From positions 1 through 51,175 of the IMG/VR virus record IMGVR_UViG_3300037176_000027: DNA of 51,175 bases, one strand, 5' to 3'. A model generated the notes under the pieces. It saw only the letters and a list, made by a program, of their open reading frames with translations. It had not been told where the DNA came from and made no database searches. Position numbers and translations under genes: made by a program. The DNA is from a virus. Of the stretch, positions 6,082 through 49,321 are shown piece by piece (the stretch's first letter is position 1; each line of letters opens with the position of its first letter).

Positions 6082-6789
6082 ATGCAGCCGGCAGACCCGA
6101 TCGAAATCGAGGGAGTGCCCCCCAGCGCCCAGCTGCGCGAGGCCCTGGCCGGCCAGACAGTGATCCTGGCCTTCAGCAGGGGAAAGGACTCACTGGCCGC
6201 CTGGCTTGCCCTACGCGACGCCGGCGCCGCCGTGATCCCGTACCACCTGTACCTGATCCCCGGCCTCAGCTGGGTCGGCGAATCGCTCGCCTACTACGCG
6301 GACTGGTTCGGCACGGAAATCATCAACCTGCCTCACCCGTCGCTGTACCGGTGGCTGTCGACGCTGCTTTTCCAGCCCCCCGAACGCTGCCGGATCCTCG
6401 AAGCCACACGGATCGTTGTCCCGGACTACAAGACCGTCAGCGACACTGTCCGCGAGCACTACGGGCTGCCCGCCGACACCTGGGTCTGTGACGGAGTGCG
6501 GGCCGCGGACTCCCCGAACCGGCGGACCAGCCTCAAAATGCACGGCCCGGTCAACCTGTCCAACCGCACGCAGAAACCCATCTGGGACTGGCGCAAGCGG
6601 CACGTCATGGACGCCATCAGCGAAGCCGGTGTCGACCTGCCGCCGGACTACGCGCTGTTCAACCGATCGTTCGACGGCCTGGACGTGCGGTTCCTCCGCG
6701 AGATCAAACGCGCCTACCCGGCCGACTACGCGACGATCCTGCGATGGTTCCCGCTCGCTGACCTGGAGCTTGCCCGTGCCGCTCTCTGA
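6082..6789 (+). CDS. PP-loop (PAPS reductase-like) ATP pyrophosphatase family protein, 235 aa
   Basis: First rightward gene. Residues 27-40 read VILAFSRGKDSLAAW, a PP-loop (SGGKDS-type) with Arg in place of the first Gly; this binds ATP in the adenine-nucleotide alpha-hydrolase fold. Downstream are PGLSWVGE, CRILEATRIV, WVCDGVRAADS and PIWDWRKRHV, typical of phage PAPS-reductase-like proteins. Known relatives reduce PAPS or adenylate substrates (CysH, TilS, QueC, DndC). Which applies here is unknown; a role in nucleic-acid modification is an inference from phage context. ATG 6082 with AGGAG 13 bp upstream. The product lacks iron-sulfur cysteine clusters. Confidence 0.82.
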   Translation: MQPADPIEIEGVPPSAQLREALAGQTVILAFSRGKDSLAAWLALRDAGAAVIPYHLYLIPGLSWVGESLAYYADWFGTEIINLPHPSLYRWLSTLLFQPPERCRILEATRIVVPDYKTVSDTVREHYGLPADTWVCDGVRAADSPNRRTSLKMHGPVNLSNRTQKPIWDWRKRHVMDAISEAGVDLPPDYALFNRSFDGLDVRFLREIKRAYPADYATILRWFPLADLELARAAL

Positions 6790-7441
6790 CGCCGCCCGGC
6801 GGCTCCTCGCCGGCCTTGGCAGCCAGCCGCCCGGCACCACCCCCGCGCCCGAGCCCGAACCTGATCCGGACGCTGACCGGACCGGATACCGCGCACGGGC
6901 CAAGGCCGAAGAGGAACGGTTCCTCCGCGCCGTCGATCCCGAATACTGGCTGGCGTTCTGCTTCCGCGGCCCCGGCGACCCGGCCGCGTTCGCCGCTGCC
7001 CTCGGCGTGACCATGGATGACCGCCGCTATGTGCCGGGCCCCGTACTCGAGGCGGCCACCGCCGCCGTCAGGACCGACACTTCCCCGGCCGCACGGGTCA
7101 GGCAGATGCTCACCGCCCGCTCCACACGCGACGCCGACATCACCGGCCAGCTGGCCGCCAAACCAGCCCCGGACCCGCTCGCCAGCCTGCGCGACACCCA
7201 GACAGGGATCGAAGCCGCATCCCTCGCCGAGTTCGCCGTGATCCTGGCCGCGCTCACCGCGGACCCCGAACCGGACCCCGCGAGCATCTACGACTCGCCG
7301 CACTGGCTGCTCGCCTACTGGGCCGACCGTGCCGGCAAAGACGCCTACCTCGCCCGCACCGGACTGGAGGTGCTGGGCGACAAATACCTGGACGGCCACC
7401 AGGCCGCCCGGATCCTCGGCATCAAGCTGAAAGGGGGATAA
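6776..7441 (+). CDS. Hypothetical protein, 221 aa, coupled to the PP-loop gene
   Basis: GTG 6776 lies inside the end of the PP-loop gene (14-bp overlap), so it is translationally coupled. Sequence: a Pro/Glu/Asp-rich linker (residues about 20-38), a helical region with ERFLRAVDPEYWLAFCF, two more helical segments, and a C-terminal block with KYLDGHQAARILGIKLKGG. The last part resembles a small helix-turn-helix. The coupling suggests it acts with the PP-loop enzyme, for example as a specificity or carrier subunit, but that is inference. Confidence 0.72.
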   Translation: MPLSDAARRLLAGLGSQPPGTTPAPEPEPDPDADRTGYRARAKAEEERFLRAVDPEYWLAFCFRGPGDPAAFAAALGVTMDDRRYVPGPVLEAATAAVRTDTSPAARVRQMLTARSTRDADITGQLAAKPAPDPLASLRDTQTGIEAASLAEFAVILAALTADPEPDPASIYDSPHWLLAYWADRAGKDAYLARTGLEVLGDKYLDGHQAARILGIKLKGG

Positions 7442-7444
7442 GCC

Positions 7445-7558
7445 ATGCTGCGTCGTGTCCGCGCAATGATCAGCAACCGTGGCGCCGCTCGCGGTGCCCG
7501 CGCTGCGGTCGCTCGCCGCGCTGCCGCTCCGGCCGCTGGCCGGATGTCCGGCACCTGA
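7445..7558 (+). CDS. Small basic protein, 37 aa
   Basis: An ATG 3 bp after the previous stop, preceded by AAAGGGGG. The product is Arg/Ala-rich (MLRRVRAMISNRG..., net strongly positive) and ends 2 bp before the small terminase. The good RBS and tight packing support translation. It could be a nucleic-acid-binding or merely structural spacer peptide. Confidence 0.5.
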   Translation: MLRRVRAMISNRGAARGARAAVARRAAAPAAGRMSGT

Positions 7559-7560
7559 CC

Positions 7561-7998
7561 ATGGGTGCCGAACACCGGCTCACGTCGTCCCGGAAGGGCG
7601 CCACCCGCAACGGTGGCGCCCTTCCGGGCGTACCGGCCCCCAAGCCACCCGACCCGCCCGCCTGGCTGTCCGGCGACGCACGGGCCATCTGGGATGCCCT
7701 CGCACCCCACGTCCCGGCAGGCAGGCTCACACCACTCAACGCGGACCTGTTCGCCATGTACGTGACCACCCTGGCGACCTACCGCGAAGCCGACTCCATC
7801 ATCACCGCATCCGGTGTCCTCATCGCGGTCGGCCAGGACCTCGCACCAAACCCCGCACTGGGCATCCGCAACGGCGCAGACGCCACCGCCGCCAGATGGG
7901 CGAAAACGTTCGGGCTCACACCAGACTCCCAGCCACTAGCGCCGCCACAAGCCCACGAGGGACCACGGAGGCTGCCTCACCTGGTAGAGGGAGCATGA
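7561..7998 (+). CDS. terS: Phage terminase small subunit, P27 family, 145 aa
   Basis: Residues 28-115 show the P27/Terminase_4 pattern: PPDPPAWLSGDARAIWDAL, TPLNADLFAMYVTT, ASGVLIAVGQDLAPNPAL, then a C-terminal helix ARWAKTFGLTP. Small terminases recognise phage DNA and regulate the large subunit. It is smaller than many P27 proteins but complete. It precedes an HTH gene and the large terminase. A perfect 17-bp hairpin is encoded in codons 10-23 (7589-7628). Confidence 0.85.
   Translation: MGAEHRLTSSRKGATRNGGALPGVPAPKPPDPPAWLSGDARAIWDALAPHVPAGRLTPLNADLFAMYVTTLATYREADSIITASGVLIAVGQDLAPNPALGIRNGADATAARWAKTFGLTPDSQPLAPPQAHEGPRRLPHLVEGA
7589..7628 (+). other. Perfect 17-bp hairpin inside the start of terS
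   Basis: CCCGGAAGGGCGCCACC and GGTGGCGCCCTTCCGGG are exact reverse complements with a 6-nt loop. It lies 28 nt after the terS start codon. No T-run follows. It may attenuate translation or transcription, or be the remnant of a terminator for the upstream small genes. Confidence 0.8.
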
Positions 7999-7999
7999 C

Positions 8000-8584
8000 G
8001 TGCCCAAGGCCCTCGACCCCAGGAAACGGGCAGCGATCCTCGCCGACATCAAAGCCGGGAAACAGCGCAACGAGATAGCCCGAGCACACGACGTCTCAGG
8101 CAGCACCGTCACGAAAATCGCAGCCGACGAAGGACTCAAGTCCGCCTTCGACCGGTCGCAGACGGAGAAAGCCACGCGCGCAAGGATTTTCGACGCGAAG
8201 GCTGCCCGTGCGCAGCTGGTTGAGGATCTGCTGCGGGATGCTCAGCGGTTCCGGGCGCGTGCGTGGGATCCGTACACGCAGATCGTGTCCGGGCCGCTGG
8301 GTGCGGAGCTGGTGACGACGAAGATGCCGCCGTTGCGGGATCAGCAGTCGGGTTATACGAGCATCGGGATCTGTATCGACAAGGCCGCGAAGCTGTCGGA
8401 CATCGACGCTGGTGATGGTTCGGCTGGTGCGCGGTCGCTGCTCGGCCGTCTCGGTGAGGCGCTGAGTGTGGCGGCTGACAGTTTCGGCCCGGACCCTGAT
8501 CCTGTAACCGAACGTGACGAAAATGCCGGTGGCTCACCGGCCGGCAAACCTCCAGAGCGTGACATTGGAACGCCCGCCGTGTAA
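8000..8584 (+). CDS. HTH protein, 194 aa; possible second terminase small subunit-like protein
   Basis: GTG start with GAGGGAG upstream. Residues 8-45 (KRAAILADIKAGKQRNEIARA, then GSTVTKIAADEG) form a homeodomain-like/resolvase-type helix-turn-helix. The following region is helical and basic (AKAARAQLVEDLLRDAQRFRARAW), with a Pro/Asp-rich acidic tail. Proteins of this architecture occur next to terminases in actinophages and may bind pac/cos DNA. With a P27 TerS directly upstream, its exact role is unclear. Confidence 0.72.
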   Translation: MPKALDPRKRAAILADIKAGKQRNEIARAHDVSGSTVTKIAADEGLKSAFDRSQTEKATRARIFDAKAARAQLVEDLLRDAQRFRARAWDPYTQIVSGPLGAELVTTKMPPLRDQQSGYTSIGICIDKAAKLSDIDAGDGSAGARSLLGRLGEALSVAADSFGPDPDPVTERDENAGGSPAGKPPERDIGTPAV

Positions 8585-8646
8585 TCGCCGCTGATCCTGG
8601 CGTCGCCGTGGCCTGGGTCCTGGTCACTGGACGTGATCGGGGGCCG

Positions 8647-9912
8647 GTGTTGGATCTGTCGGCCGTCACCGACGTCCTGTCCCGGAAACAGATCCAGTCC
8701 ATCGTCGACGCCCAGGCGCGGATCAACCTGTGGGACGGCGCGATCCGGTCGGGGAAGACCATCGCGAGCTTGCTGCGGTGGCTCATGTACGTCGCTGACG
8801 CTCCAACGTCCGGTGAGCTGGTCGTCATCGCCAAGACCTCGATCACCGCGGCGCGGAACGTGTTCGGGCCGCTGATGGACTTCGAGCTGTTCGGCGAGCT
8901 GGCCGCCGAGACGACGTACACCACGGGGTCGCCGTTCGCGTCGATCCTCGGCCGCCGCGTGTGGGTGATCGGCGCGAACGACGTCCGCGCCGAAACCCGC
9001 CTGCGCGGCCTGACCTGCGCCGGATGCTACGTCGACGAAGCGTCCCTCGTCCCCGAGCAGTTCTTCACGCAGCTCCTCGGCCGTATGAGCGTCCCCGGCG
9101 CGAAAATGTTCGCGACCACCAACCCCGATAACCCGGCGCACTGGCTGCGGAAGAACTTCCTCACCAACGATGCGCTCAACCTGCGGAACTGGCATTTCGT
9201 CCTCCACGACAATCCCAGCCTGACCGCCGACTACATCGCGGCCATCTCAGCGGAGTTCACCGGCCTGTGGTACCGGCGGTTCATCCTCGGCGAATGGGTC
9301 GCCGCTGAAGGCGCCGTCTACGACATGTGGGACGAACGCCGCCACGTCGTCGACGTCGTACCCGCCATCCAGTCGTGGGTGTGCGCCGGCATCGACTACG
9401 GCACCACCAACCCGTTCCACGCCGTGCTCCTCGGCGCCGGAACGGACGGGGTGCTGTACGCGGTCGACGAGTACCGGTGGGACTCCCGCCGCGAGCGCAG
9501 GCAGCTCACCGACTCCCAGTACAGCGAGAACCTGCGGACCTGGCTCAAAGGCGTCCGCATCCCGACGACCCGCCTGCATGGCGTCATGCCCGCCTACATC
9601 GTCGTCGACCCGTCCGCGGCGTCGTTCCGGGTCCAGCTGTTTCAGGACGGTCTCAACGTCGTACCCGGCGACAACGCGGTCCTCGACGGCATCCGCCTGG
9701 TCGCCTCGCTCATGTCGACGGACCGGTTCAAAGTGTCCCGGAACTGCCCGGCGCTGATCGGGGAGATACCCGGCTACTCGTGGTCCGACGAGCATGCGAT
9801 GCGCGGTGAGGACGTCCCGGTCAAGGTCGATGACCACGGCGTCGACGCCCTCCGGTACGGCATCAAAACGACTCAGGGGATGTGGGAGCCGCGGCTGCGC
9901 CGCGCCGCCTGA
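8647..9912 (+). CDS. terL: Phage terminase large subunit (PBSX-type), 421 aa
   Basis: The motor that cuts and translocates phage DNA into the prohead. Visible motifs: Walker A GAIRSGKT, Walker B CYVDEAS, coupling motif FATTNPD, then the RNase H-like nuclease with GIDYGTTNP, YIVVDPSA and HGVDALRYG carrying the metal-binding acids. Length fits the TIGR01547 family. GTG 8647 follows CGGGGGCCG and gives a start (VLDLSAVTDVLS) like relatives; an in-frame GTG at 8608 would add 13 residues. It follows the HTH gene and precedes an HNH nuclease. Confidence 0.93.
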   Translation: MLDLSAVTDVLSRKQIQSIVDAQARINLWDGAIRSGKTIASLLRWLMYVADAPTSGELVVIAKTSITAARNVFGPLMDFELFGELAAETTYTTGSPFASILGRRVWVIGANDVRAETRLRGLTCAGCYVDEASLVPEQFFTQLLGRMSVPGAKMFATTNPDNPAHWLRKNFLTNDALNLRNWHFVLHDNPSLTADYIAAISAEFTGLWYRRFILGEWVAAEGAVYDMWDERRHVVDVVPAIQSWVCAGIDYGTTNPFHAVLLGAGTDGVLYAVDEYRWDSRRERRQLTDSQYSENLRTWLKGVRIPTTRLHGVMPAYIVVDPSAASFRVQLFQDGLNVVPGDNAVLDGIRLVASLMSTDRFKVSRNCPALIGEIPGYSWSDEHAMRGEDVPVKVDDHGVDALRYGIKTTQGMWEPRLRRAA

Positions 9913-10019
9913 CTGTCCGACCTGCCCGATACGGTCGACTCCGGACATGGCGATCCCCGCACGGCTGGCACCGTACGGGGACCTATCGCCGACCTGAACC
10001 CCTTCACAGGCAGGCCAGC

Positions 10020-10652
10020 TTGACCGATCGTACGTGCACGGTCGACGGCTGCGATAAGCCTCACCTCGCACGCGGCATGTGCCGCAAGCACTACAAGCGC
10101 GACGCCTACTGGCGCAACGTCGAGACCGAGCGCGAGAAGCTACGCCAGCGCAGCCCCGAGAAGCAGCGCGAGTACAACCAGCGCAACTACGAGCGCCACC
10201 AGGAGCAGCGCCGCGAGGCCCGACGCGACTACTACACCCGAAACGCCGCTGCCGCGCGCCAGGCCAGCCGTGATTGGGCAGCCAAGAACCCTGAACGTGT
10301 AGCGGCCAACAAACGGCACTACGCGGAGATGAACCGCGACAAGCTCGCGGCCTACTACCGCGAGTATCAGCGGACAAACGTTGAGCGCAGGCGGGCAAGC
10401 AACGCGAAGCGCCGTGCTGCCATCCGCTCCACCACCGTTGATCCGGTGGACTACGCCGCGATCTTGGTTGAGCACGGGATGACCTGCCATCTCTGCGGCG
10501 CCTCGATCGAATCGTTCGACGACCTGCACTTTGACCACGTGGTTCCGCTCTCTCGGGGCGGTACACACACGGCCGACAACATCCGACCGGCTCACGAGCT
10601 GTGCAACCTGCGCAAGGGCTCGAAGCTCATGGAGGAACTGAAAGCGGGGTGA
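10020..10652 (+). CDS. HNH endonuclease between terL and portal, 210 aa
   Basis: TTG 10020 is the most plausible start; an in-frame ATG at 9882 lies inside terL. Residues 6-28 (CTVDGC, then MCRKHYK) form a small N-terminal zinc knuckle. A long Arg/Lys/Glu-rich helix follows (residues about 35-125). The HNH domain is at about 155-205: CHLCGASI, FDHVVPLSRGGTH, NIRPAHELCNLRKG. HNH proteins beside terminases can assist cos cleavage during packaging, or be free-standing homing nucleases. The position favours the first, the long linker helix the second. Confidence 0.85.
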   Translation: MTDRTCTVDGCDKPHLARGMCRKHYKRDAYWRNVETEREKLRQRSPEKQREYNQRNYERHQEQRREARRDYYTRNAAAARQASRDWAAKNPERVAANKRHYAEMNRDKLAAYYREYQRTNVERRRASNAKRRAAIRSTTVDPVDYAAILVEHGMTCHLCGASIESFDDLHFDHVVPLSRGGTHTADNIRPAHELCNLRKGSKLMEELKAG

Positions 10653-10661
10653 TTCGGCCCC

Positions 10662-12377
10662 GTGGCAATCGACGACCGCGCAATGAACATGTTGCCGGTA
10701 ACCAATCAGCCTTGGCCGCCGCCACAGTACGACCCGATTAACTATCAGCTACGACTCTGGGACGCTTGGTATTCGGGCGATATTCAGAAGCTGAGCTGGG
10801 CCTACTACAACCTCGGCGCTAACTCTCCAGCCGGTCGCGCGTACTTCGCGACTACGGGTGAGCCTGGCATGCCGACTCCGCGGCCGGGCCAGTTCCGCGG
10901 CGGTCTCATCGGCTCGATCTCGCGGTTTTTCTGGGGCCAGCCGGTGCCGCCCGGTGAGAAGCGCACCAAGTATCACGTGCCGATCGCGGGTGACATCGCC
11001 CAGACGTCCAGTGACCTGCTGTTCAGCGAACCCCTCGTCGTCAAGTCAGAGCTGGCGGCCAATCAGGCGGTGCTCGACGACTACTTCGACGACGGCCTGC
11101 ACTCCACGCTGCTGGAGGCCGGTGAGCTGGCGTCGGCGCTCGGGGGAGTGTTCCTGCGGACCGTGTGGAACACCGATATCGCGGAGTACCCGTGGATCGA
11201 CATCGTTCCGTGTGACTCGGCGGTGCCGCAGTTCGCGTACGGGAAGCTCGTCGCGGTCACCTTCTGGCGGGTGCTATCGGACGACGGCAAAGAGGTCGTG
11301 CGTCACCTGGAGAAGCACATCCCCAGCCAGAACACGATCCTGCACGGCGTCTATGTCGGGAATCAGACGGACCTCGGCACGGTGTACCCGCTGACCGACT
11401 TCCCGGAGACACGCCAGTTCGTCGGGGACCTCACCGAAGGCAACGCGATCACGTTCCCTGATCAGCCGATGGACGCGAGCACGGTCGTCTACATCCCGAA
11501 CATCCGCCCGAACCGGCTGTGGCGTGACCTCGGCCCGCAGGCCGCGCCGCTGGGCCGGTCCGACTACGCCGGTATCGAAACGCTGATGGACGGCCTCGAC
11601 GAAACGTACTCGTCGTGGATGCGGGACGTGCAGCTCGCCAAAGCACGGCTGATCGTGCCGCAGCAGTACCTCGACAACATCGGTAAAGGCGAAGGTGCCG
11701 TGTTCGACACGGACCGGCAGGTTTACACGCCGATGCAGATGCTCGCCACCAGCGGCACCAGCGACATCGTGGCCAACCAGTTCGCGATCCGCTTCCAGGA
11801 ACACGCCCAAACCGCGTCCGACCTGGTGGGCCGCATCATTCAGGGCGCCGGGTACAGCGGGCAGACGTTCGGTGAGTTCGACGCCGGTTCCGGTGCGATC
11901 ACCGCCACCGAAGTTGAGCAGCGTGAGCGGCGGTCGCTGACCACCAGGGGCAAGAAGATCCTCTACTGCCGTCCCGGTATCCGCGACATCCTCTACGGCC
12001 TCCTCGCGGTCCGCCGCGAAATGTTCGGCGACACCACCGTCGAACCGGAACGGCCCGAGATCGATTTCCCTGCTGTCGTGCTCCCCGATCAGAACGAGCT
12101 CGCGTCGACCGCGAACCTGCTCGCCCAGGCCGAAGCCGCGTCCAAACAGACCCTCGTCGCGCTGGTCCACCCGGACTGGACCACGGACGAGGTGAACGAG
12201 GAAGTCTCCCGGATCTTCAGCGAAATCGGCCTGGACCTGGCGACCAGGGCCCGCGTCATGGTGTCCGAGCCGATGACGTCAACCGCGGACTTCACCGAGC
12301 AAGCCGAACAGCTCGCGCAGACGGTCAAGCCGCCGGACATCCCACCGGACGTGCCCGGCACCACCACCCAGGAGTGA
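10662..12377 (+). CDS. Phage portal protein (SPP1 gp6-like), 571 aa
   Basis: Forms the dodecameric ring through which DNA enters and leaves the head. Size and landmarks fit the SPP1_portal family: N-terminal YDPINYQLRLWDAWYSGD, KYHVPIAGDIAQTSSDLLF near residue 110, long helical stem, GYSGQTFGEF, TATEVEQRERRS, and a C-terminal helical crown with VHPDWTTDEVNEEV. It starts at GTG 10662. It is followed after 5 bp by a coupled series of small genes. Confidence 0.92.
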   Translation: MAIDDRAMNMLPVTNQPWPPPQYDPINYQLRLWDAWYSGDIQKLSWAYYNLGANSPAGRAYFATTGEPGMPTPRPGQFRGGLIGSISRFFWGQPVPPGEKRTKYHVPIAGDIAQTSSDLLFSEPLVVKSELAANQAVLDDYFDDGLHSTLLEAGELASALGGVFLRTVWNTDIAEYPWIDIVPCDSAVPQFAYGKLVAVTFWRVLSDDGKEVVRHLEKHIPSQNTILHGVYVGNQTDLGTVYPLTDFPETRQFVGDLTEGNAITFPDQPMDASTVVYIPNIRPNRLWRDLGPQAAPLGRSDYAGIETLMDGLDETYSSWMRDVQLAKARLIVPQQYLDNIGKGEGAVFDTDRQVYTPMQMLATSGTSDIVANQFAIRFQEHAQTASDLVGRIIQGAGYSGQTFGEFDAGSGAITATEVEQRERRSLTTRGKKILYCRPGIRDILYGLLAVRREMFGDTTVEPERPEIDFPAVVLPDQNELASTANLLAQAEAASKQTLVALVHPDWTTDEVNEEVSRIFSEIGLDLATRARVMVSEPMTSTADFTEQAEQLAQTVKPPDIPPDVPGTTTQE

Positions 12378-12382
12378 CCCAG

Positions 12383-12658
12383 ATGGGCGCAGCGAAGAAA
12401 ACGACCATCAAGCCGGCTAAGCGTGGCCAGCGGGCGATCAGTTTCCAGCCCGGCGGCCTCCATCAGTCCCTCGGCGTACCGGCGGGGAAGCCGATCCCGG
12501 CCGGCAAGAAGAACGCGGCTCTGCGCGGCGACTACGGGCCGAAAGCCCAGGCGCAAGCACGGTTCGCGAAGAACGTCCTCACCGGCCCCAAAAGCGGCGG
12601 CAAGCCTGCCGCACGTGGGGGCAAGACAGCTGGCCGGGCGGCCGGCAGAGGGAGGTGA
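12383..12658 (+). CDS. Small basic protein, 91 aa
   Basis: ATG 12383 has CAGGAG at 8-bp spacing. A GTG nine bases earlier overlaps the portal stop but has no RBS. The product is Lys/Arg/Gly/Ala-rich throughout (KKTTIKPAKRGQRA near the start, AARGGKTAGRAAGRGR at the end), intrinsically disordered and likely to bind nucleic acid. Similar short basic proteins follow portal genes in actinophages; the role is not known, perhaps a head-internal DNA-binding protein. Confidence 0.68.
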   Translation: MGAAKKTTIKPAKRGQRAISFQPGGLHQSLGVPAGKPIPAGKKNAALRGDYGPKAQAQARFAKNVLTGPKSGGKPAARGGKTAGRAAGRGR

Positions 12659-12661
12659 CCC

Positions 12662-12919
12662 ATGGGTAAGGCGACCGCCTCACACGACCCGAACGCCACC
12701 ATCCGCGACACCAGCGGCGCGATAGCGGGCCGGTGGAATCAGGGCGCGCATGCCACCACCCCGGCCGGCGGGAAGACCACACCGGTCCGGTTCGTGAACG
12801 CACCCAAGCCCCCGACGCCGGGCCCGAACGTGGACATGAAGGACGGTGACGGCGACGGCCCCGGCGGCGGGAAGCCGACCCGCACGATCGCGGGCGAGCC
12901 GATGCCGGGCGGCTGCTGA
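12662..12919 (+). CDS. Small disordered protein, 85 aa
   Basis: An ATG three bases after the previous stop, with GGGAGGTG as RBS. The product is Pro/Gly/Asp-rich (DMKDGDGDGPGGGK near residue 60), with no hydrophobic core. The stop overlaps the next start as TGATG, so it is part of a coupled cascade 12383-13316. Possibly a capsid accessory or decoration peptide; no family recognised. Confidence 0.62.
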   Translation: MGKATASHDPNATIRDTSGAIAGRWNQGAHATTPAGGKTTPVRFVNAPKPPTPGPNVDMKDGDGDGPGGGKPTRTIAGEPMPGGC

Positions 12920-13158
12920 TGGCCGCCACGCCACCAGCCGGGAAGCATGTCCCGTCCCGGGTGCCGAACAGCGGCCCGGTCGACGCCTCCGCGAAGGTCG
13001 CCGCGTTCCGTGGCACCAACGAGGGCCCGACCACGGTCGGCGTAAATCCGGCCCCGCCCGGGCAGCGTCTCGTGTCCGACAACGACGCGCTGACCTCCGG
13101 GACACCGGCCGCGTCGACGGAGGCGACGTCGTTCCCGCCGTACGGCGGGAACTACTGA
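12919..13158 (+). CDS. Small disordered protein, 79 aa
   Basis: Starts within the upstream stop (TGATG) and ends in the same way, giving strict translational coupling on both sides. It is Pro/Ala/Ser/Thr-rich and ends SFPPYGGNY. It shares overall composition with 12662-12919, so the two may be diverged duplicates, although identity is too low to be certain. Function unknown. Confidence 0.62.
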   Translation: MAATPPAGKHVPSRVPNSGPVDASAKVAAFRGTNEGPTTVGVNPAPPGQRLVSDNDALTSGTPAASTEATSFPPYGGNY

Positions 13159-13316
13159 TGGCCTACTTGTGGCCCGGCGAGATCGCGTGGCCGTTCCTGG
13201 GCCAGCCCACTGAGCCACCCGCGCCGCCTGAGCAGCCTGCCCCGTTCTGCGGAAAGCGGCGCGGCGTCACCAAGTCCCCCTACCGGGCGAAGCGGCGGAA
13301 CCGCCGCAAACGCTGA
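13158..13316 (+). CDS. Small protein with basic tail, 52 aa
   Basis: Coupled by TGATG to the previous gene. The N-terminus is aromatic (MAYLWPGEIAWPFLGQP), followed by a Pro-rich hinge and a strongly basic tail (KSPYRAKRRNRRKR). It could be membrane- or DNA-associated. The position and coupling support it; nothing else identifies it. Confidence 0.58.
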   Translation: MAYLWPGEIAWPFLGQPTEPPAPPEQPAPFCGKRRGVTKSPYRAKRRNRRKR

Positions 13317-13351
13317 CCAGCCCACCTGACCGAAAGGAACGACCAGCCCCC

Positions 13352-13591
13352 ATGGGTTTCACCGAAGTCCTCACGCTCATCTTCATCTACCTCAAGCTGA
13401 CCCACCAGGTCACGTGGTCATGGTGGCTGGTGCTCGCGCCCGAGGAAGCCGCCGCGGTCGCCTACGCGGCGTTCCTGCTGTTCTTCGGCGGTCTGGCGGT
13501 CGCGTTGACCCGCGACGACCGGAAGGCCGCCAGACGCGACCGCCGCGCCCAGCGGCGCCGGGACGACATGCGACGGGGCATTCGGTACTGA
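13352..13591 (+). CDS. Small membrane protein, 79 aa
   Basis: Two hydrophobic segments (about residues 5-18 and 31-52, including AAAVAYAAFLLFFGGLAVAL) and a very basic cytoplasmic tail (KAARRDRRAQRRRDDMRRG). AAAGGA lies about 13 bp before the ATG. This topology is common for unassigned membrane proteins in actinophage structural operons. It might be a holin-like or superinfection-related protein, but it lies far from the endolysin, so I leave it unassigned. Confidence 0.66.
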   Translation: MGFTEVLTLIFIYLKLTHQVTWSWWLVLAPEEAAAVAYAAFLLFFGGLAVALTRDDRKAARRDRRAQRRRDDMRRGIRY

Positions 13592-13713: not shown

Positions 13714-14336
13714 CTGACATCTACTACGACACCGAGTTCATCGAGGCAGGCCCGCACGAGCCGCTACGGTTCCTGTCGATCGGCCTGGTCGCCGACGACG
13801 GCCGCGAATACTACGCGGTCACCGCCGACCCGGACGTAATCACCGCCGCTGTCGCCCACGACTGGCTCCGCGTCAACGTCGTCCCGTCCCTGCCCGTCAC
13901 AGTCGAGCAGGTGCCGTGGGGGAAGGCGCACGGCTGGAGCCGCTGGCAATGGGAGTGGGACCGGGCGCACCCGGACTACCGGCACGTCAAGGACCGCGAG
14001 CAGATCGCCGTCGAGGTCCGCGACTTCATCCTTGCCGAACCCGATCCGCGGCTGTGGGCCTGGTATGCCGCCTACGATCACGTGGTCTTGTGCCAGCTGT
14101 ACGGGCCGATGATCAGCCTGCCCGCCGGGATGCCGATGTGGACGAACGACCTCAAGCAGGAAGCCGTACGCCGCGGCGACCCGCACCTCCCGGCGATGCC
14201 TGGCGTCCGGTCGCATAACGCGCTCGACGACGCCCGTGAAGTCCAGTACCGGCGCCGTTTGCTTCATCCCGTCAGTCGTTCAGAGGAGGGGACGGACGAA
14301 ACCGCTCGGGAAGCGTGGGGTTATCCAGCGCGCTAG
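13710..14336 (+). CDS. 3'-5' exoribonuclease (Rv2179c-like DEDDh), 208 aa
   Basis: The N-terminus YYDTEFIEAG carries the first Asp-x-Glu pair, followed by FLSIGLVADDGREYYAV. WYAAYDHVVLCQLYG supplies the third acid, and RSHNALDDARE the DEDDh His and final Asp. This is the Rv2179c-like exonuclease family, which trims RNA 3' ends in mycobacteria. The domain is complete by about residue 180. The last 25 residues are encoded by DNA overlapping the convergent pentapeptide gene and look non-native, suggesting that the original 3' end was replaced when the cargo inserted. Confidence 0.88.
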   Translation: MTDIYYDTEFIEAGPHEPLRFLSIGLVADDGREYYAVTADPDVITAAVAHDWLRVNVVPSLPVTVEQVPWGKAHGWSRWQWEWDRAHPDYRHVKDREQIAVEVRDFILAEPDPRLWAWYAAYDHVVLCQLYGPMISLPAGMPMWTNDLKQEAVRRGDPHLPAMPGVRSHNALDDAREVQYRRRLLHPVSRSEEGTDETAREAWGYPAR

Positions 14337-15399
14337 GTGGCAGTTCGACGCCAGCCAGGTTCGCGCCGGTCAGATTCGTGCCGGTCAGGTTCGCGCGGGT
14401 CAGGTTCGCGACGGACAGGTCTGCGCTGGTCAGGTTCGCGCCAGTCAGGTCCGCGCTGGTCAGGTCCGCGCCGGCCAGGGTCACGCTGGTCAGGTCCGCG
14501 CTGGTCAGGTCCGCGCGGGTCAGGTTCACGAAGGCCAGGTTCGCGCCGGTCAGGTTCGCGCGGGTCAGGTTCGCGCGGGTCAGGTTCGCGCCGGACAGAT
14601 ACGCGCCGGCCAGGGTCGCGCCGGCCAGATACGCCCTGGTCAGGTTCGCGTTGGGGAGGGCCGTTCTGGCCAGGGTCGCGCCGGCCAGATACGCCCTGGT
14701 CAGGTTCGCGTCGGCGAGGACCGCGCCGATCAGGTTCACGCCGGCCAGGGTCGCGCCGGCCAGATACGCGCCGCTAAGAATCAGATCACCGCGTTCCTCA
14801 CGTCCTCGCGGCCGTCGTCCGAGCACCGTTGCGGCAGCTCGAACGTCAGTCTCCGATGTAATGAGACCGGTTTCTTCTGCCGCCTCAAGCTCTGCCTGGC
14901 GAGTCCTTGAGAGGCGAGAGTGCTCCCCGATAAACGCCGCGAGCACTTCCACAATCGTTGGATGGTCGCGCGGCGAGTCGATCATGATGCGCTCCAGCGC
15001 GTAGATCGCGCCCAGCCGCACATCGAGCGCATCTGACCCGAGCTGTCCGATTGCCTTGGTGTACCTGTCGGTGACGTGGCTTTCGCGGGACAGATTGAAG
15101 TTCCGGGCCGTGTACACCAGTGCGGTAACTGCTGCCACGCCGGCGCCGAGCTGGAGCATCCGGCCACGGAGCGCGTCAATGGCGGTCTCCCGCTGGACCG
15201 GAGTGAGTGCTTTCAGCCGTGAAGCATCCAGCCACGGCGGGCCGAGCCAGACGAACACGGCGAACACGGCGAACACGGCGAACGCACCTGTGAATGCCAG
15301 GGGCCATCGGTAGCGCCGGCCCCATGCCCACACTCTTCTGACGATGACAGCTGCGCCCCGGGCTAAAGCCCTGCGGTGACGCCTGATCCATGTAGGCAC
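14272..15399 (-). CDS. Membrane-anchored pentapeptide-repeat protein, 375 aa
   Basis: Read against the late operon. Residues about 30-52 and 82-102 are membrane segments. A conserved stretch ESHVTDRYTKAIGQLGSD, then VRLGAIYALERIM (residues about 112-145), is shared with many actinobacterial pentapeptide membrane proteins. About 25-30 A(D/N)LxxA pentapeptides follow (residues 205-355), a right-handed quadrilateral beta-helix. GTG start with a weak RBS. Biological role unknown; some relatives protect DNA gyrase, but most do not. It looks like a moron inserted between the exonuclease and 15528-16013, overlapping the former by 65 bp. Confidence 0.88.
   Translation of the reverse strand: MPTWIRRHRRALARGAAVIVRRVWAWGRRYRWPLAFTGAFAVFAVFAVFVWLGPPWLDASRLKALTPVQRETAIDALRGRMLQLGAGVAAVTALVYTARNFNLSRESHVTDRYTKAIGQLGSDALDVRLGAIYALERIMIDSPRDHPTIVEVLAAFIGEHSRLSRTRQAELEAAEETGLITSETDVRAAATVLGRRPRGREERGDLILSGAYLAGATLAGVNLIGAVLADANLTRAYLAGATLARTALPNANLTRAYLAGATLAGAYLSGANLTRANLTRANLTGANLAFVNLTRADLTSADLTSVTLAGADLTSADLTGANLTSADLSVANLTRANLTGTNLTGANLAGVELPPSALDNPTLPERFRPSPPLND
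15252..15278. repeat. 9-bp triplicate within the pentapeptide gene
   Basis: Three exact CGAACACGG units encode the FAVFAVFAVF part of the first membrane segment on the minus strand. This kind of short tandem repeat can change copy number by slippage without shifting the frame. Confidence 0.85.
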
Positions 15400-23002: not shown

Positions 23003-23335
23003 ATGGCACGGATCGAGATGGACCCTGACGCCGGCGCACAGGTCATGGCCGCCTGGCACGAGTTCGCCGATAGCCGGCTCGGCCCGGACATTGCGGGAGA
23101 CGCCCGCCGGTACGCGCCGAAACGGTCTGGGTCGCTGGCCGGGTCAGTGGAGCATCACATGGAAGGCGACGACCTGATCGTCTCGGCGACCGGCGGCGAC
23201 GACGGCCGCACCTACGCGGCCTACGTCGAGCTAGGGCACAGGGTCTTCCACCCGTCCACGGGCGTCACCGGACCCGAGGTCGTGCAGCCTGAGCCGTTCC
23301 TCCGGCCTGCCCTCTATCAGGAACGCGGCGACTAA
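23003..23335 (+). CDS. HK97 gp10-like tail completion protein, 110 aa
   Basis: RBS CGGAGGTGGCC. Typical gp10-like landmarks: helical ARRYAPKRSGSLAGSVEHH, then a beta segment LIVSATGGDDG, YAAYVELGHRV, and C-terminal QPEPFLRPALYQ. This small protein joins the tail to the head. It is the last rightward gene before the two propeller genes. Confidence 0.82.
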   Translation: MARIEMDPDAGAQVMAAWHEFADSRLGPDIAGDARRYAPKRSGSLAGSVEHHMEGDDLIVSATGGDDGRTYAAYVELGHRVFHPSTGVTGPEVVQPEPFLRPALYQERGD

Positions 23336-23412
23336 CAGCCCCCCGCCCAGCCGCGAACACCAAGCCCCTCACCCGGCGGCAACCATCCAGACGACCACCG
23401 GGCGCGCACCGC

Positions 23413-24459
23413 TCAGCACCTGCACCGGCTGATCACCGACACCGTGTTACCGGACACGTTGGTCACGTAGGCCGTGTGGGTAACGGGGGCCACCGCCACC
23501 CCGTACGGAGATGTGCCCACGGGGACGGTGGCCGTTACTGTGCCGGTGGCCCCGTCGATGACCGACACCGTGCCAGCGTCTCTGTTGGCCACGTAGACAG
23601 TGCGGGCAGCGGGATCCACCGCCACCCCGGTCGGGTAGCGGCCCACCGGGATGGTGCGGGTCACGGTGCCGGTGGCCGCATCGATCACCGACACTGTGTT
23701 ATCGCCGGAGTTGGCCACGTATACGGTGCCGGCCGCGGAATCCACCGCCACCCCGTACGGGAATGAGCCCACCGGGATGACACGGGTCACGGTGCCGGTG
23801 GCCGCATCGATCACCCACACCGTGCCAGCGAAATAGTCGGCCGCGTAGACGGCGCCGGCCGCGGGATCCACCGCCACCGCCACCGGGCCGCCGCCCACGC
23901 GGATGGTGCCGGTCACGGTGCCGGTGGCCGCATCGATCACCGACACCCCGCCTCCGAAGTTGGCCACATAGACAGTGCGGGTGACGGGATCCACCGCCAC
24001 CCCCATCGGGTCGGAGCCCACGGGGATGGTGCCGGTCACGGTGCCGGTAGCCGCATCGATCACCGATACCGTGCCATCGCTTTCGTTGGCCACGTAGAGG
24101 GTACGGGCCGCGGGATCCACCGCCAGCGCATCCGAGCCATGGCCCACGGGGATCGTGCCGGTCACGGTGCCGGTGGCCGCATCGATCACCGACACCGTGC
24201 TATCGCTGGGATCGCTGTGGCCATCGCCTAGGTTGGCCACGTAGACGGTGCGGGCAGCGGAATCCACCGCCACCCCGGACGGTCCGTCACCCACGGGGAT
24301 GGTGCGGGTCACCCGGTAACGAACCACCGCCGGAGCATGCGCCGCCGTCACCAGCGGCATCCCCCCCACCACCACCGCCACCACAACAGCGCACCACCCA
24401 CGCGCGCGCAACCACCCACCCAGCCCAGTGGCACCGCGAACGCCCCCCCGTGCACGCAT
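23413..24459 (-). CDS. Secreted YVTN-family seven-bladed beta-propeller, 348 aa (copy A)
   Basis: Start at ATG 24459 with GGGGGAGAGG before it; a longer frame upstream is not needed. Signal peptide: basic start, then CAVVVAVVVGGMPLV, cleavage near TAAHA. The mature part is seven about 42-residue repeats, each with VAVDxxARTVYVAN and TVSVIDAATGTVTxTIPVG, which build a seven-bladed propeller. Propellers of this class are exported and bind surface or extracellular partners. The gene runs against the phage late operon between head-completion and tail genes and is a tandem paralogue of 24651-25694. Likely lysogenic-conversion cargo. Confidence 0.9.
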   Translation of the reverse strand: MRARGGVRGATGLGGWLRARGWCAVVVAVVVGGMPLVTAAHAPAVVRYRVTRTIPVGDGPSGVAVDSAARTVYVANLGDGHSDPSDSTVSVIDAATGTVTGTIPVGHGSDALAVDPAARTLYVANESDGTVSVIDAATGTVTGTIPVGSDPMGVAVDPVTRTVYVANFGGGVSVIDAATGTVTGTIRVGGGPVAVAVDPAAGAVYAADYFAGTVWVIDAATGTVTRVIPVGSFPYGVAVDSAAGTVYVANSGDNTVSVIDAATGTVTRTIPVGRYPTGVAVDPAARTVYVANRDAGTVSVIDGATGTVTATVPVGTSPYGVAVAPVTHTAYVTNVSGNTVSVISRCRC

Positions 24460-24545
24460 AACCTCTCCCCCTGGTCCCCTTGGCCCTCGTCCCGGCGGAA
24501 ACGGCCAGGCCCCGCCCGCACACCATCCTCCACTCAAGCAATCAG

Positions 24546-24563
24546 ATATTACTTTACGTAATC
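24546..24563 (-). promoter_or_regulatory. Conserved upstream element of propeller copy A
   Basis: An AT-rich island in GC-rich DNA, 87 bp upstream of the ATG. It contains the inverted repeat ATTAC-5-GTAAT (24548-24562); on the minus strand TAATAT is a good -10, but no -35 is seen at 17 bp. The same element precedes copy B (25781-25798), suggesting co-duplication and a common regulator. Confidence 0.7.
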
Positions 24564-24650
24564 AGACGACCCCCCCACCCCAGCCGCCGGACACCAAGCC
24601 CTTCCACCCGGGCGGCACCCATCCAGATGACCACCGGACCTCACCGCTGA

Positions 24651-25694
24651 TCACATAGACGGGCTGATCACCGACACCGAGTTACTGAGCAAGTTGGTCA
24701 CGTAGACCGTGTGGGTACAGGGATCCACCGCCACCCCGTCCGGCAATGAGCCCACCGGGATGGTCCCGGTCACGGTGCCGGTGGCCGCATCGATCACCGA
24801 CACGGCGTGATCGCCGGCGACGGCCACGTAGACGGCGCGGGCGGCGGAATCCACCGCCACCGCCTCCGGGTCAGGGCCCACGAGGATGGTGCGGGTCACC
24901 GTGCCGGTAGCCGCATCGATCACCGACACCGTGCCATCGCTGGAGTTGGGCACGTAGACGGTGCGGGCCGCGGAATCCACTGCCACCGCGGCCGGGAAGT
25001 GGCCCACGAGGATGGTGCGGGTCACGGTGCCGGTAGCCGCATCGATCACCGACACCGTGCCATCGCTCAGGCCGGCGTCGTCGTGGGCCACGTAGATGGT
25101 GCGGGCCACGGGGTCCACTGCCACCGCGGCCGGGCTGCCGCCCACGGGGATGGTGCGGGTCACGGTGCCGGTAGCCGCATCGATCACCGACACCGTGCCG
25201 TCGGTGTTGGCCACGTAGACGGTGCGGGCCGCGGGATCCACCGCCACCGCCACTGGGTCGGAGCCCACGGGGATTGTGCGGGTCACGGTGCCGGTGGCCT
25301 CATCGATCACCGATACCGTGCCAGCCAAATAGTTGGCCACGTAGACGTTGCTGGCAACGGGATCCACCGCCACGCTCATCGAGTCGATGCCCACGCGGAT
25401 GGTGCGGGTCACGGTGCCGGTAGCCGCATCGATCACCGACACCGTGCCATCGCTCCAGCTATCGCCGTCGTTGGCCACGTAGACGGCGCGGGCTGCGGGA
25501 TCCACCGCCACCCCCCGCGGGTATGAGCCCACGGGGATGGTGCGGGTCACCCGGTAACGAACCGCCGCCGGAGCATGCGCCGCCGTCACCAGCGGCATCC
25601 CCACCACCACCGCCACCAGGCCGGCGCACCATCCGCGCGCGGACAACCACCCACCCAGCCCAGCAGCACCGCGAACGCCTCCCCGCACACGCAT
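24651..25694 (-). CDS. Secreted YVTN-family seven-bladed beta-propeller, 347 aa (copy B)
   Basis: Close paralogue of copy A. Start ATG 25694 with GGGGGGAGAGG. The signal peptide MRVRGGVRG...ARGWCAGLVAVVVGMPLV with cleavage near TAAHA is almost identical. Seven YVAN/TVSVIDAATGTVT/TI(P/L/R)VG repeats; two blades carry short acidic insertions (DDAGLSDG, DGDSWSDG). Similar 3' and 5' flanks to copy A show a tandem duplication of about 1.2 kb including promoter and 3' region. Blade faces differ most in the loops, which could reflect different ligands. Confidence 0.9.
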   Translation of the reverse strand: MRVRGGVRGAAGLGGWLSARGWCAGLVAVVVGMPLVTAAHAPAAVRYRVTRTIPVGSYPRGVAVDPAARAVYVANDGDSWSDGTVSVIDAATGTVTRTIRVGIDSMSVAVDPVASNVYVANYLAGTVSVIDEATGTVTRTIPVGSDPVAVAVDPAARTVYVANTDGTVSVIDAATGTVTRTIPVGGSPAAVAVDPVARTIYVAHDDAGLSDGTVSVIDAATGTVTRTILVGHFPAAVAVDSAARTVYVPNSSDGTVSVIDAATGTVTRTILVGPDPEAVAVDSAARAVYVAVAGDHAVSVIDAATGTVTGTIPVGSLPDGVAVDPCTHTVYVTNLLSNSVSVISPSM

Positions 25695-25780
25695 AACCTC
25701 TCCCCCCATGGGCCATGGCCCCTCGTCCCGGCGGAAATGGCCAGGCCCCGCCCACACACCATCCCACTCAAAGCAACCAG

Positions 25781-25798
25781 ATATTACTTTACGTAATC
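25781..25798 (-). promoter_or_regulatory. Conserved upstream element of propeller copy B
   Basis: The same ATATTACTTTACGTAATC island as upstream of copy A, with inverted repeat ATTAC-5-GTAAT at 25783-25797 and TAATAT as a minus-strand -10 candidate. It is 87 bp from the copy B start. Confidence 0.7.
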
Positions 25799-25849
25799 GA
25801 AACGTGGGAACCGCATTCGCGCCCCCTTGAACCCCGGGGGTGAGCACCG

Positions 25850-26347
25850 GTGACACCTCCGCTACCCCTCGATAACGACGACGAGCTGGTGACTGCCGCG
25901 TGGATCGCCACCATCCCCGGTTTCACTGCGGAGATGACCGGCGCGCAGCTGCCGCCCGACACCGACGAGCACGGCAAACCAGCGGCGTGGCTCCGGACGG
26001 GGTTCGTGACCGTCGCCTCGGTGGGCGGCACGCCGGACGACATGCTGCCGGTCAACCGGCCTGTGATGGAAGTGAAGTGCTGGGCCGCGGTGCCCGGAAG
26101 CGACGACCCGCCCTGGCTGATGGCCCGCGCGCTCGCGTCCGCGATCCAGCGGGCCGTCTGGCAGCGGAAGGGCGTCAACCGGCTGCTGACCATCAACGTC
26201 AACGGCCGCGCTTATCCGCCTGCAGTCGTGCAGGGCGCCTACATGGCGCAGACGTTCCGCCGTATCTACGCCGACCCCGGCGACTATGCCTGCTACCAGG
26301 CCGACATGGGCCTGACCTGGATCACCGTGGGCGACCGCATCCCGTAG
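25850..26347 (+). CDS. Tail terminator/completion protein, 165 aa
   Basis: GTG 25850. A mixed alpha/beta protein: AWIATIPGFTAEMTGAQ, PVMEVKCWAAVPGSDDP, LASAIQRAVWQRKG, and a beta strand DMGLTWIT near the end, the layout of gp U-like/neck proteins preceding the major tail protein. It directly follows the propeller insertion and by order belongs with 23003-23335. Confidence 0.72.
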   Translation: MTPPLPLDNDDELVTAAWIATIPGFTAEMTGAQLPPDTDEHGKPAAWLRTGFVTVASVGGTPDDMLPVNRPVMEVKCWAAVPGSDDPPWLMARALASAIQRAVWQRKGVNRLLTINVNGRAYPPAVVQGAYMAQTFRRIYADPGDYACYQADMGLTWITVGDRIP

Positions 26348-37763: not shown

Positions 37764-39860
37764 ATGTCGCTGACGGTCACCGCCGCCCAATCCGGTACGG
37801 GTGCTTTCGATGGGATGGCCCTTACCGTCCGAGTGGTCACGGGGCAGGCGGCCAGCCCGATCGGTGCGACCGCCTCATCCGGCACGGTCACCGCACCGGA
37901 ACTGCCGATCACCCCCGCCGCCACCGGCAGCTACGTCTACGGCGCGGTTTACAACGCGAACGTGTCCACCGCGTTCACCGCGGCGACCGGCACGACGTTC
38001 TCCCAGAACACGAGCGACACCGGCGACGGGGTGGCCTACGGGACGTTCCGCCTCACCGCCACGACCACGTCCGGCGCACCGGTCTCGGTCGGCGCTACCG
38101 CGCCGGCCGAGACGGCTGGCCTCCTGAGTATCGCCCTGCTGGAGATCAAGGCCGGGACCGGACTCGCTGAGGACTCCTCCAGTCCGGCCGCGGTCGATAC
38201 CACCACGGCTGAGACGCTCACCACGGCCAGCTTCAGCCCGCCCGCGGGGAGCATCCTGGTCGCGCAGGTGGTCGCGAACTGCACGGGGGACGGCACGAAC
38301 TCGATGGCCGTCACGGTCAGCGACTCATCGGGCCTGACGTGGACCAAGCAGGCCTCCGATACCCAGACCGTTGGCTCAGCGACCTACGAGGTCGTGTCCA
38401 TATGGACGGCTGTGGTGCCATCTACCGAGCTGACGCCCCCGGTTTTCGTTGCCGCCTACTCGCCCAGCCCGGATTGGGTGTCGGCCGCGAGCCCGAAGAC
38501 GCAGACGGTCCCGCTCCCCGCCGGGGACGTGCTGGTGGTGCTCGGCGGCACCCAGAGCTCCACGACGACGCTGGGTATCCCGGCGGGCGGCCCGGCGGGG
38601 CTCGGCCTGGACAAGTCGTCGGCGGTGTCCGGGTTCTGCGCGGGGTACGTGTGGTCGGCGGTGGCCAGCGCGCTGCAAGTGACCACGGCGAGCCTTCCGG
38701 CCGCGACGGCGGGCACCGCGTACTCCTCGACGCTTACGGCCACGGGCGGCTCGGATACCGGCTTCACCTGGACGGTATCGGCTGGCGCGCTGCCGGTCTG
38801 GGCAGCGCTGAACAGCTCCACGGGAGTTATCTCAGGCACGCCAACAAGCGGCGAGACCGGCAGCAGCAGCTTCACGGCCGAAGTCACCGACTCTGCCGGT
38901 AACACCGCCACCGCGTCCCTGTCTCTCACCGTGGACGCCGCCGCCGGCACGCAGCCGAACGGCCCCTCGGGCTCCTGGACCCTCGCGTGGAACGATGAGT
39001 TCAACGACGCCACCGGCATGTCGGGTAACACGAACGGGCTGAGCGCGCAGAAGTGGAACGTCGGGTGGTTCTACGGCCCGTCCTCTCCCGGTGGCACCGG
39101 CTACACCGGCACGTCGTTCACCGACTCCAGCGGCGCGGGCGCGATCGAGTTCTACGGCAAGGGCGCGCTGGCGTTCCCTGCTGGCGGCGGCATGACGATG
39201 AGCTGCTACGCATCCGGCGACGGCCCGGATGGTGCGAGCTACAACTCAGGTGGCCACACGTCCACGTCAGAGTCCGGCGGCGTCAACACCGCTGGCATCA
39301 TGAACATCACCCCGAACACCAGCTACAGCGTGCCGTCGGACATCGCGAGCACGGTCATCCAGGCCGCGAGCATCGTGGTCGAGATGAAGGCCCGGATGCC
39401 CGGCCCGAGCGCGGCGGCCGCTGGCTACTGGGCGTTCGTGGGCTTCTACAACGCCGGTAACAGCGACGTCCCCGACTACCCCGACAGTGGCTACTACGAA
39501 GAGATCGACGCCTGGGAGCAGCTTGGCAACGACTGTACCGGTGCGTCGTACGAGTTCCACCTGCACGAAGCGTCGACCTACAACGGATCGTCGTCCGCGC
39601 CGACGTCTCTCCAGACCACCGACCTGAGCCTGGCGTACCACACGTACACGATCGAATTCACCTATTCGACGATGACGATGTGGATCGATGGCGTCGAGGT
39701 CACCGACAACTCCCCGACCGCCGCTGAATGCGAAGCCCAGTGGGCCACTCCGCAGTACCTCAACATTCTGTTCCAGATTCTCGCGGGATACGAGCCTACC
39801 GGCAGCGGCGGCGCGACCCCGTGGATGATCGACTACGTCCGCGTCTGGACACAGGCATGA
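37764..39860 (+). CDS. Tail fibre/tip protein with a C-terminal GH16 glycoside hydrolase domain, 698 aa
   Basis: RBS AGAGAGGCAGAGG. Residues 1-215 are a beta module almost the same in pattern as the start of 41014-42447. Residues about 310-390 are a putative Ig domain (FTWTVSAGALPVWAALN, then STGVISGTPTSGETGSS). From about 400 a GH16 (laminarinase/lichenase) fold: WTLAWNDEFNDATG, MKARMPGPSAAAAGYWAF, catalytic E580-I-D-A-W-E585, and WMIDYVRVW at the end. The predicted enzyme cleaves beta-1,3/1,4-glucan-like polysaccharide on the host surface. Coupled to the next gene by ATGA. Confidence 0.88.
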   Translation: MSLTVTAAQSGTGAFDGMALTVRVVTGQAASPIGATASSGTVTAPELPITPAATGSYVYGAVYNANVSTAFTAATGTTFSQNTSDTGDGVAYGTFRLTATTTSGAPVSVGATAPAETAGLLSIALLEIKAGTGLAEDSSSPAAVDTTTAETLTTASFSPPAGSILVAQVVANCTGDGTNSMAVTVSDSSGLTWTKQASDTQTVGSATYEVVSIWTAVVPSTELTPPVFVAAYSPSPDWVSAASPKTQTVPLPAGDVLVVLGGTQSSTTTLGIPAGGPAGLGLDKSSAVSGFCAGYVWSAVASALQVTTASLPAATAGTAYSSTLTATGGSDTGFTWTVSAGALPVWAALNSSTGVISGTPTSGETGSSSFTAEVTDSAGNTATASLSLTVDAAAGTQPNGPSGSWTLAWNDEFNDATGMSGNTNGLSAQKWNVGWFYGPSSPGGTGYTGTSFTDSSGAGAIEFYGKGALAFPAGGGMTMSCYASGDGPDGASYNSGGHTSTSESGGVNTAGIMNITPNTSYSVPSDIASTVIQAASIVVEMKARMPGPSAAAAGYWAFVGFYNAGNSDVPDYPDSGYYEEIDAWEQLGNDCTGASYEFHLHEASTYNGSSSAPTSLQTTDLSLAYHTYTIEFTYSTMTMWIDGVEVTDNSPTAAECEAQWATPQYLNILFQILAGYEPTGSGGATPWMIDYVRVWTQA

Positions 39861-40942
39861 CCGGCTACGCGCTGTCGGAGTCCAGCAGCGGCACTGGCCT
39901 ATGGGGTGACATCGCCCTGGCGTTCTCCGGGTCGCCCGGGACCGGGGCTTCGGCGTCGGCTACCGGATCTGGCGCGCCGTCGCTGACCATCACCACCACC
40001 CAGAACCATTCAGCGATTGCCGTCCTGGTCCTGGACGCCGACGCCAATAACGGCAGCTCGCGGGCCTGGCTGACGGTCAACGGGGTCACGCCCAGCGCCG
40101 GCAATGGGTACGAGCAGGTGTACTCCTACAGCGCGTCGGAATACGCCGCCTACGTCGCCTATTACCCCGACGCTGGGGCGGCCGGGGCGCAGACGGTCGG
40201 CTTGTCCGCCCCGTCGATGCAGTACACGATCCTCGCCGTCGAGGTCCTCGGCGGCACCGAAGCCGCGGGCGCGGTCACTTCCACCGGCTCGGCGGCCCTG
40301 GCCGCGCTGAGCGCGTCCGGTGCGGGCGGCCCCGTCGTCCCGGTCACTTCCACCGGCTCGGCGGCCCTGGCCGCACTGGCCGCGTCCGGTGGCGTGATCC
40401 CGCCGCAGATGGAAGTGTTCGCGGACATCCCGGCCGGGGTGGTGACCTCCGGCGGGACCGATGCGCCGCCCGCGGGCACTGTGGAAACGTGGACGGTGTT
40501 CGTGTCGGTGCCGTTCGCTGCCGCATCGCCCAGCGGCACCCCGCAGACGTTCTTCTACGCTGCGGATCCGGTCGCCCCGTCCGAGATATTCCTCATCACC
40601 GCCTGCCCAGGCGGGACCGGTTCCCAGACGTGGACGGTGACCCGCGGCGCGGACGGCGCGGCACCGGTCGCTCACGGGGCCGGATTCACCGTCGTACAGG
40701 TGGTCTCACGGGCGTCGCTGAAGGCGTTGCAGGCGGTCCGGGGGACCACGGTCTTGTCCGGGGGGACAGCGACCGTCACCTGCTCCACGATCACCGCCAA
40801 CTCGCTGATCTACCTGACCAGCCAGGCAGACGGCGGCACCCCCGGATGGCTGCGGGTCTCGGCCCGTGTCCCAGGCGTGTCGTTCACCATCACCTCAAGC
40901 AATGGCGCCGACGCGAGCACGGTCGCCTACGCGATCGGCTGA
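39857..40942 (+). CDS. Tail fibre protein, 361 aa
   Basis: ATG in the stop of the GH16 gene. N-terminal beta domain (GLWGDIALAFSGSPGTGA, HSAIAVLVLDADANNG, VGLSAPSMQYTILAVEVLG), then two short TSTGSAALAAL repeats, a middle domain (TPQTFFYAADPVAPSEIFLI, TWTVTRGADGAAPVAHGAG) and a C-terminal beta sheet. The Ala/Ser repeats are shared with 41014-42447. Probably a receptor-binding fibre. Confidence 0.75.
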   Translation: MTGYALSESSSGTGLWGDIALAFSGSPGTGASASATGSGAPSLTITTTQNHSAIAVLVLDADANNGSSRAWLTVNGVTPSAGNGYEQVYSYSASEYAAYVAYYPDAGAAGAQTVGLSAPSMQYTILAVEVLGGTEAAGAVTSTGSAALAALSASGAGGPVVPVTSTGSAALAALAASGGVIPPQMEVFADIPAGVVTSGGTDAPPAGTVETWTVFVSVPFAAASPSGTPQTFFYAADPVAPSEIFLITACPGGTGSQTWTVTRGADGAAPVAHGAGFTVVQVVSRASLKALQAVRGTTVLSGGTATVTCSTITANSLIYLTSQADGGTPGWLRVSARVPGVSFTITSSNGADASTVAYAIG

Positions 40943-49033: not shown

Positions 49034-49229
49034 TGCCTGTCCTCTGTATACGTAATGCGTCGTTTACACGACACATCGAACGAGGACTCTGCGGGCATGG
49101 CACAAGGCTAGACGGCGTCCCGGCGCGGGGTCACGCAGACGCACCCGGGGCCCAGCTTGCTGCTCCGAGTTCGCGTCCGGCGCATCGTCCGCTATCCTTC
49201 TCTGTGCCGCCGGGCACACGGCGGCTCCA

Positions 49230-49311: not shown

Positions 49312-49321
49312 CATCCTGCGA

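Follow-up and report, generated by a model that had tools for sequence, protein, structure and literature searches.

Tandem propeller genes among the late genes

Within the window, the whole 51,175-base IMG/VR record of a soil phage analyzed here, the minus strand bears two genes for paralogous YVTN β-propellers, arranged head to tail inside a plus-strand block of phage structural genes. Table 1 lists the two genes, their neighbors, and the associated elements. The two proteins, prop1 and prop2, are 74% identical and possess seven repeats each, in agreement with the original prediction. Both carry the tandem ~42-residue repeats that define the YVTN family above the curated TIGR02276 cutoff, scoring 204 and 230 bits against 27.85 over six stretches each (1e-61 and 1e-69). 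An AlphaFold model of prop2 comprises 28 strands organized into seven blades, with pLDDT values mostly above 94 outside the first ~45 residues. By sequence (2.5e-47) and by fold, the closest solved protein is the Methanosarcina surface-layer protein 1L0Q, which belongs to the same repeat family; 1L0Q is a tandem YVTN-PKD protein, whereas prop1 and prop2 are single-domain, phage-borne, and devoid of PKD domain or anchor. The Pfam YNCE family (PF21783) is also matched above its cutoff. E. coli YncE, likewise a seven-bladed exported propeller, compares with the prop2 model at a TM-score of 0.77–0.78 and about 20% identity; at 96.5 and 101.9 bits, however, the phage proteins fall far below the 400-bit cutoff of the YncE equivalog NF052280 and lie outside that group.

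Table 1 Features of the propeller pair and its immediate surroundings
Feature	Position	Strand	Remarks
Neck1/head-completion gene, left neighbor of the insertion	23003–23335	+	PHROG 5, tail completion/Neck1, 2.9e-6
Duplication unit 1 (promoter-like motif, leader, prop1, 3′ flank)	23339–24563	−	
GC-rich 11-bp hairpin directly after the prop1 stop	23370–23405	−	
prop1, paralogue of prop2, seven blades, 348 aa, same signal peptide	23413–24459	−	Start ATG 24459
Conserved 5′ leader of prop1	24460–24545	−	
Promoter/operator-like element GATTACGTAAAGTAATAT, upstream of prop1	24546–24563	−	
Duplication unit 2 (promoter-like motif, leader, prop2, 3′ flank)	24572–25798	−	
prop2, predicted-secreted seven-bladed YVTN β-propeller, 347 aa	24651–25694	−	Start ATG 25694
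Conserved 5′ leader of prop2, with RBS GGGGGAGAGGTT at its end	25695–25780	−	Common to the host copies L052 and L058
Promoter/operator-like element GATTACGTAAAGTAATAT, upstream of prop2	25781–25798	−	0 mismatches
Presumed tail-terminator gene, right neighbor of the insertion	25850–26347	+	Position and conservation in relatives

The two N-termini are alike (MR.RGGVRGA.GLGGWL.ARGWCA..VAVVVG.MPLVTAAHA/PA, the slash marking the putative cleavage site) and, read by eye, display the features of a Sec signal peptide: a basic n-region, a hydrophobic core, and an AHA-PA cleavage site. The predicted signal peptide of prop2 covers approximately residues 1–41, and no membrane or cell-wall anchor was seen in either propeller sequence. 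The ATG starts were preferred to those of longer GTG/TTG-initiated reading frames because of the ribosome binding site GGGGAGAGG, the common signal peptide, and homology to host genes; GGGGAGAGGTT precedes the start ATG of both genes. Antisense reading frames were rejected as true genes: the plus-strand ORF at 24807–25526 has as its counterpart in the other copy only a much shorter frame (96 aa, 23476–23766), and it is the minus-strand frames, with their high GC3, that specify YVTN propellers. The GC3 of the pair resembles that of host and phage genes.

Each gene forms part of a duplication unit of ~1.23 kb that runs from the promoter-like motif to about 70 bases of 3′ flank, with 82% DNA identity between the units; the proposed ~1.2 kb unit including promoter and 3′ flank is thereby recovered. 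Unit 1 starts 4 nt from the neck1 stop codon, and unit 2 ends ~50 nt short of the start of the next late gene. Of the placement originally described, between head-completion and tail-terminator genes, the neck1 side stands on its PHROG match and the other side is assigned by position; the right neighbor returned no match in profile searches and is read as the tail terminator because it lies between neck1 and a major-tail-like protein and is conserved in relatives. Neither a sigma-70 consensus promoter nor a T-tract terminator was found at the pair. That the hairpin downstream of prop1 acts as a terminator is conjecture, as it is devoid of a T tract and the region folds no better than shuffled sequences. 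A structured leader RNA was likewise rejected, with folding no better than that of shuffles, and an Rfam search returned no match.

Distribution among viruses and a host-type source

Five or six near-identical viral contigs bear the pair. Both genes are present, at 99.96–100% identity to the window, in 3300037207_000030, 3300048503_000024, and 3300014491_000005; in 3300037064_000036 and 3300050031_000037, prop1 is present and the contig ends inside or just after prop2, and 3300037238_000006 matches only partially. The conspecific contigs spanning the pair (L005–L007) have both full reading frames intact, and the identical layout in independent contigs from other metagenomes rules out an assembly artefact. 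In 3300050031_000037 (L016), a 35-bp deletion at 300–310, near the end of the prop1 signal peptide and near the contig end, would, if real, shift the prop1 frame, unless it is a contig-end assembly error.

Related phages possess the same two flanking genes without a propeller between them. The neck1/tail-terminator junction measures 16–27 nt in five of them (L029, L030, L034, L035, and L038) and is somewhat longer in two others (L014 and L033). An eighth relative, L013, carries at this junction an unrelated insert of ~1 kb (6913–7888) with a 79-aa reading frame and a GC content of 57% against 68%, which marks the junction as a tolerant insertion site. The propeller genes thus occupy a site at which related phages have the two flanking genes side by side, as expected of a moron. 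Because the junction is empty or nearly so in seven relatives and filled otherwise in the eighth, the pair is a lineage-specific, moron-like accessory insertion. The original description of secreted-type propellers encoded as an accessory pair within the structural operon, oriented against it and equipped with a promoter-like element of their own, is supported. The pair is confined to one viral species, and the empty junctions rule out a phage system conserved at this site. The capsid-side/adaptor junction is another variable junction in L030 and L033, which carry glycosyltransferase-like and methyltransferase-like genes, recognized by eye, between the capsid-side and adaptor genes (10366–13520 and 8577–11731, respectively).

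Other phage propellers are few in phage records, with one record returned by one search and only distant ones by another; several phage propellers can be recognized by fold in BFVD. Those of L009 are parts of open frames exceeding 1,100 aa. No described phage system of this kind was found in the literature searched.

Scanning 84,980 genomes with short exact peptide patterns from the signal-peptide region, by which more distant relatives would be missed, yielded a single close relative of the pair, in the Actinomycetota metagenome-assembled genome bog_764 (G007, from a bog), where it adjoins an amidohydrolase-like gene. This genome has 14 matches, and the best full-length match (73%) has a LacI-type regulator gene and a membrane-protein-like gene as neighbors. 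Two of its chromosomal propellers (L052 and L058), at 72–75% protein identity to the phage genes, possess the same signal peptide, the same leader, and the same GATTAC-N5-GTAATAT element. A composite pattern of element, spacing, and RBS/start has exactly two matches in G007, both upstream of propellers, and none in 30 relatives; the reversed-pattern control gave no match. We rejected a role of the motif as a host-wide operator, since only two other sites, each with one mismatch, occur in G007, near unrelated genes. Propellers in other relatives reach about 52% or less.

G007 fits a relative of the phage's host, because its capsid gene is 68% identical to that of the phage. The phage genes descend from a host chromosomal family with the same promoter-like element and leader, or have a recent origin in common with it. 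The notion of the pair as a phage invention was consequently abandoned: the propeller family belongs to the host lineage. With the same promoter and leader carried by the host family, and with the pair confined to one viral species, the pair is acquired moron-like cargo and not a conserved phage system. At the DNA level prop1 and prop2 are about as divergent from each other (82% identity) as each is from the host gene L058 (80–81%). The tandem duplication was one event, which may have occurred in the host, prior to capture, or in the phage afterwards: ~70 bases of 3′ flank are common to both phage units, and of these the host copy retains no more than the first ~20.

Constant scaffold and variable loops

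Substitution patterns divide the propellers into two sections. In comparisons among prop1, prop2, and the host gene, pN/pS is 0.3–0.5 in the signal peptide and about 0.55–0.7 in the blade scaffold, with pN below pS in at least 95% of scaffold bootstraps; both regions are under purifying selection. The D-A and B-C loops, which were set by propeller topology and lie on one face, differ at 61–63% of residues, with pN exceeding pS in 97–99.8% of bootstraps. Per-blade entropy reaches about 2.7–3.2 bits at five positions and remains below 1.9 at every other; these five positions vary in YVTN repeats generally. A test on variable positions picked from the same data is partly circular, and the topology-defined loops were used instead. 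Diversifying selection on the loops of the presumed binding face is suggested by the few sequences used; blade exchange may raise both pN and pS.

In G046, at least five YVTN propellers form a chromosomal tandem array (L146, G046:C1:117500–131000) that is similarly organized. The scaffold is conserved and the loops are 48–66% different, with pN clearly exceeding pS in the g0/g1 and g0/g3 comparisons and not in other pairs. Host paralogues that combine a conserved scaffold with variable loops suggest a family of exported recognition proteins in bacteria, one that merits study for itself. The closest known propellers that would work alike are the HET-D and HET-E WD40 domains of fungal NLRs, in which near-identical repeats differ at four positions under diversifying selection (PMC12222747). 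The likeness, hypervariability limited to a few positions of each repeat and lying on one surface, is one of analogy: HET-D/E propellers are WD40, intracellular, and joined to NLR domains, whereas prop1 and prop2 are YVTN, predicted to be secreted, and free of NLR domains, and the two are not homologous at the family level.

Readings of the pair

We give an even chance to the reading that the pair is host-derived accessory cargo, encoding two secreted binders of different specificity that are expressed independently of the late genes. A chromosomal propeller gene of the actinobacterial host, together with its promoter and leader, would have entered the neck1/tail-terminator junction in reverse orientation and been duplicated in tandem before or after capture. 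Transcription would proceed from the host-type element, independent of and antisense to late transcription; the proteins would be exported and, through the D-A/B-C loop face, bind ligands outside the cell or in its envelope, the two copies differing in specificity. The carrier would thereby gain added surface or secreted binding functions, amounting to lysogenic conversion if the phage is temperate. The host derivation, the accompanying promoter-like element, and the reverse orientation in a late operon fit the moron-like reading. Counted against it are the lack of a sigma-70 consensus and T tract, the possible frameshift in L016, and the lack of a match in the defence library.

As a rule, phage cargo that alters the host surface consists of single genes from known classes. 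Accessory cargo is in itself a known kind, and the variable-face signature sets this pair apart. The moron for Ltp in S. thermophilus phages (PMC3952083) and Salmonella prophage loci expressed in lysogeny (PMC7067206) likewise place a gene of host-beneficial type between phage genes, with its own promoter-like element and absent from relatives. None of the moron classes described is a tandem pair of hypervariable-loop propellers. The host source, the accompanying promoter, and the exact varying residues can all be named, which makes specificity, expression, and effect directly testable.

Could the genes be passive passengers, in which a host gene reached a tolerant junction by illegitimate recombination, conferred no advantage, and bears selection signals that predate capture? 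Restriction to one viral species and the possible L016 frameshift would agree with this, as would phage-host and copy-copy DNA identities of 80% and 82%, by which the copies may have diverged before capture. We nonetheless deem it unlikely, as both full reading frames are intact in the spanning contigs, an insert of about 2.5 kb is kept in a ~50 kb genome across several metagenomes, and both units retain the host-type promoter and RBS. Superinfection exclusion, with secreted propellers coating or masking an envelope receptor to stop adsorption of related phages, would make use of the signal peptides and the variable binding face, and the moron-encoded Ltp, a surface-exposed exclusion protein of temperate phages, is its closest functional precedent (PMC3952083). 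We regard this role as quite unlikely: no anchor is seen in the sequences, they are dissimilar to known exclusion proteins or defence models (0 PADLOC families matched the propellers), and the host has the same family, which argues that the function is not phage-specific.

That the propellers instead decorate the particle and aid binding to the host surface or soil polymers is brought to mind by the location inside the structural gene block; the opposite strand, the separate promoter-like element, and the signal peptide run counter to this, the empty junctions in relatives indicate that there is no structural need, and the propellers of L009 reside in far longer frames than prop1 and prop2. 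Virion association is therefore very unlikely. A broader and tentative reading, which we would not favor, is that this group of actinobacteria maintains secreted propellers of constant scaffold and variable face as a diversifying repertoire, and that the phage took two of them to change or block its host's extracellular recognition; if true, this would constitute a bacterial parallel to the HET-D/E recognition propellers.

Concerning the lysogeny on which conversion by the cargo pair would depend, no tyrosine integrase or resolvase domain was found in the record, which counts against it; integrase matches are seen in G001, G003, and G004, which are related records. At the right end lies a tRNA-Tyr (49187–49503) whose promoter and downstream sequence are host-like; an IS110-type transposase gene (49902–51086, minus strand) comes next. 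Two conspecific contigs end at about 49200 and a third diverges there; the region may be a boundary of integration or of host DNA. The surroundings of the tRNA-Tyr resemble host tRNA-Tyr regions, but an attachment site could not be made out in them.

Other genes in the record may also be of accessory type. A second minus-strand gene in the late block (14272–15399) encodes 375 residues with a hydrophobic N-terminal segment and pentapeptide repeats (PF00805, 1.8e-52); it scores below every NCBIfam cutoff for named pentapeptide families and is a candidate for another accessory gene. Two plus-strand genes are further candidates of the accessory or host-interaction type: a PAPS-reductase-like gene at 6082–6789, and a gene at 39728–40942 that matches a phage polysaccharide-deacetylase family and the C-terminal domain of K1 capsule lyase.
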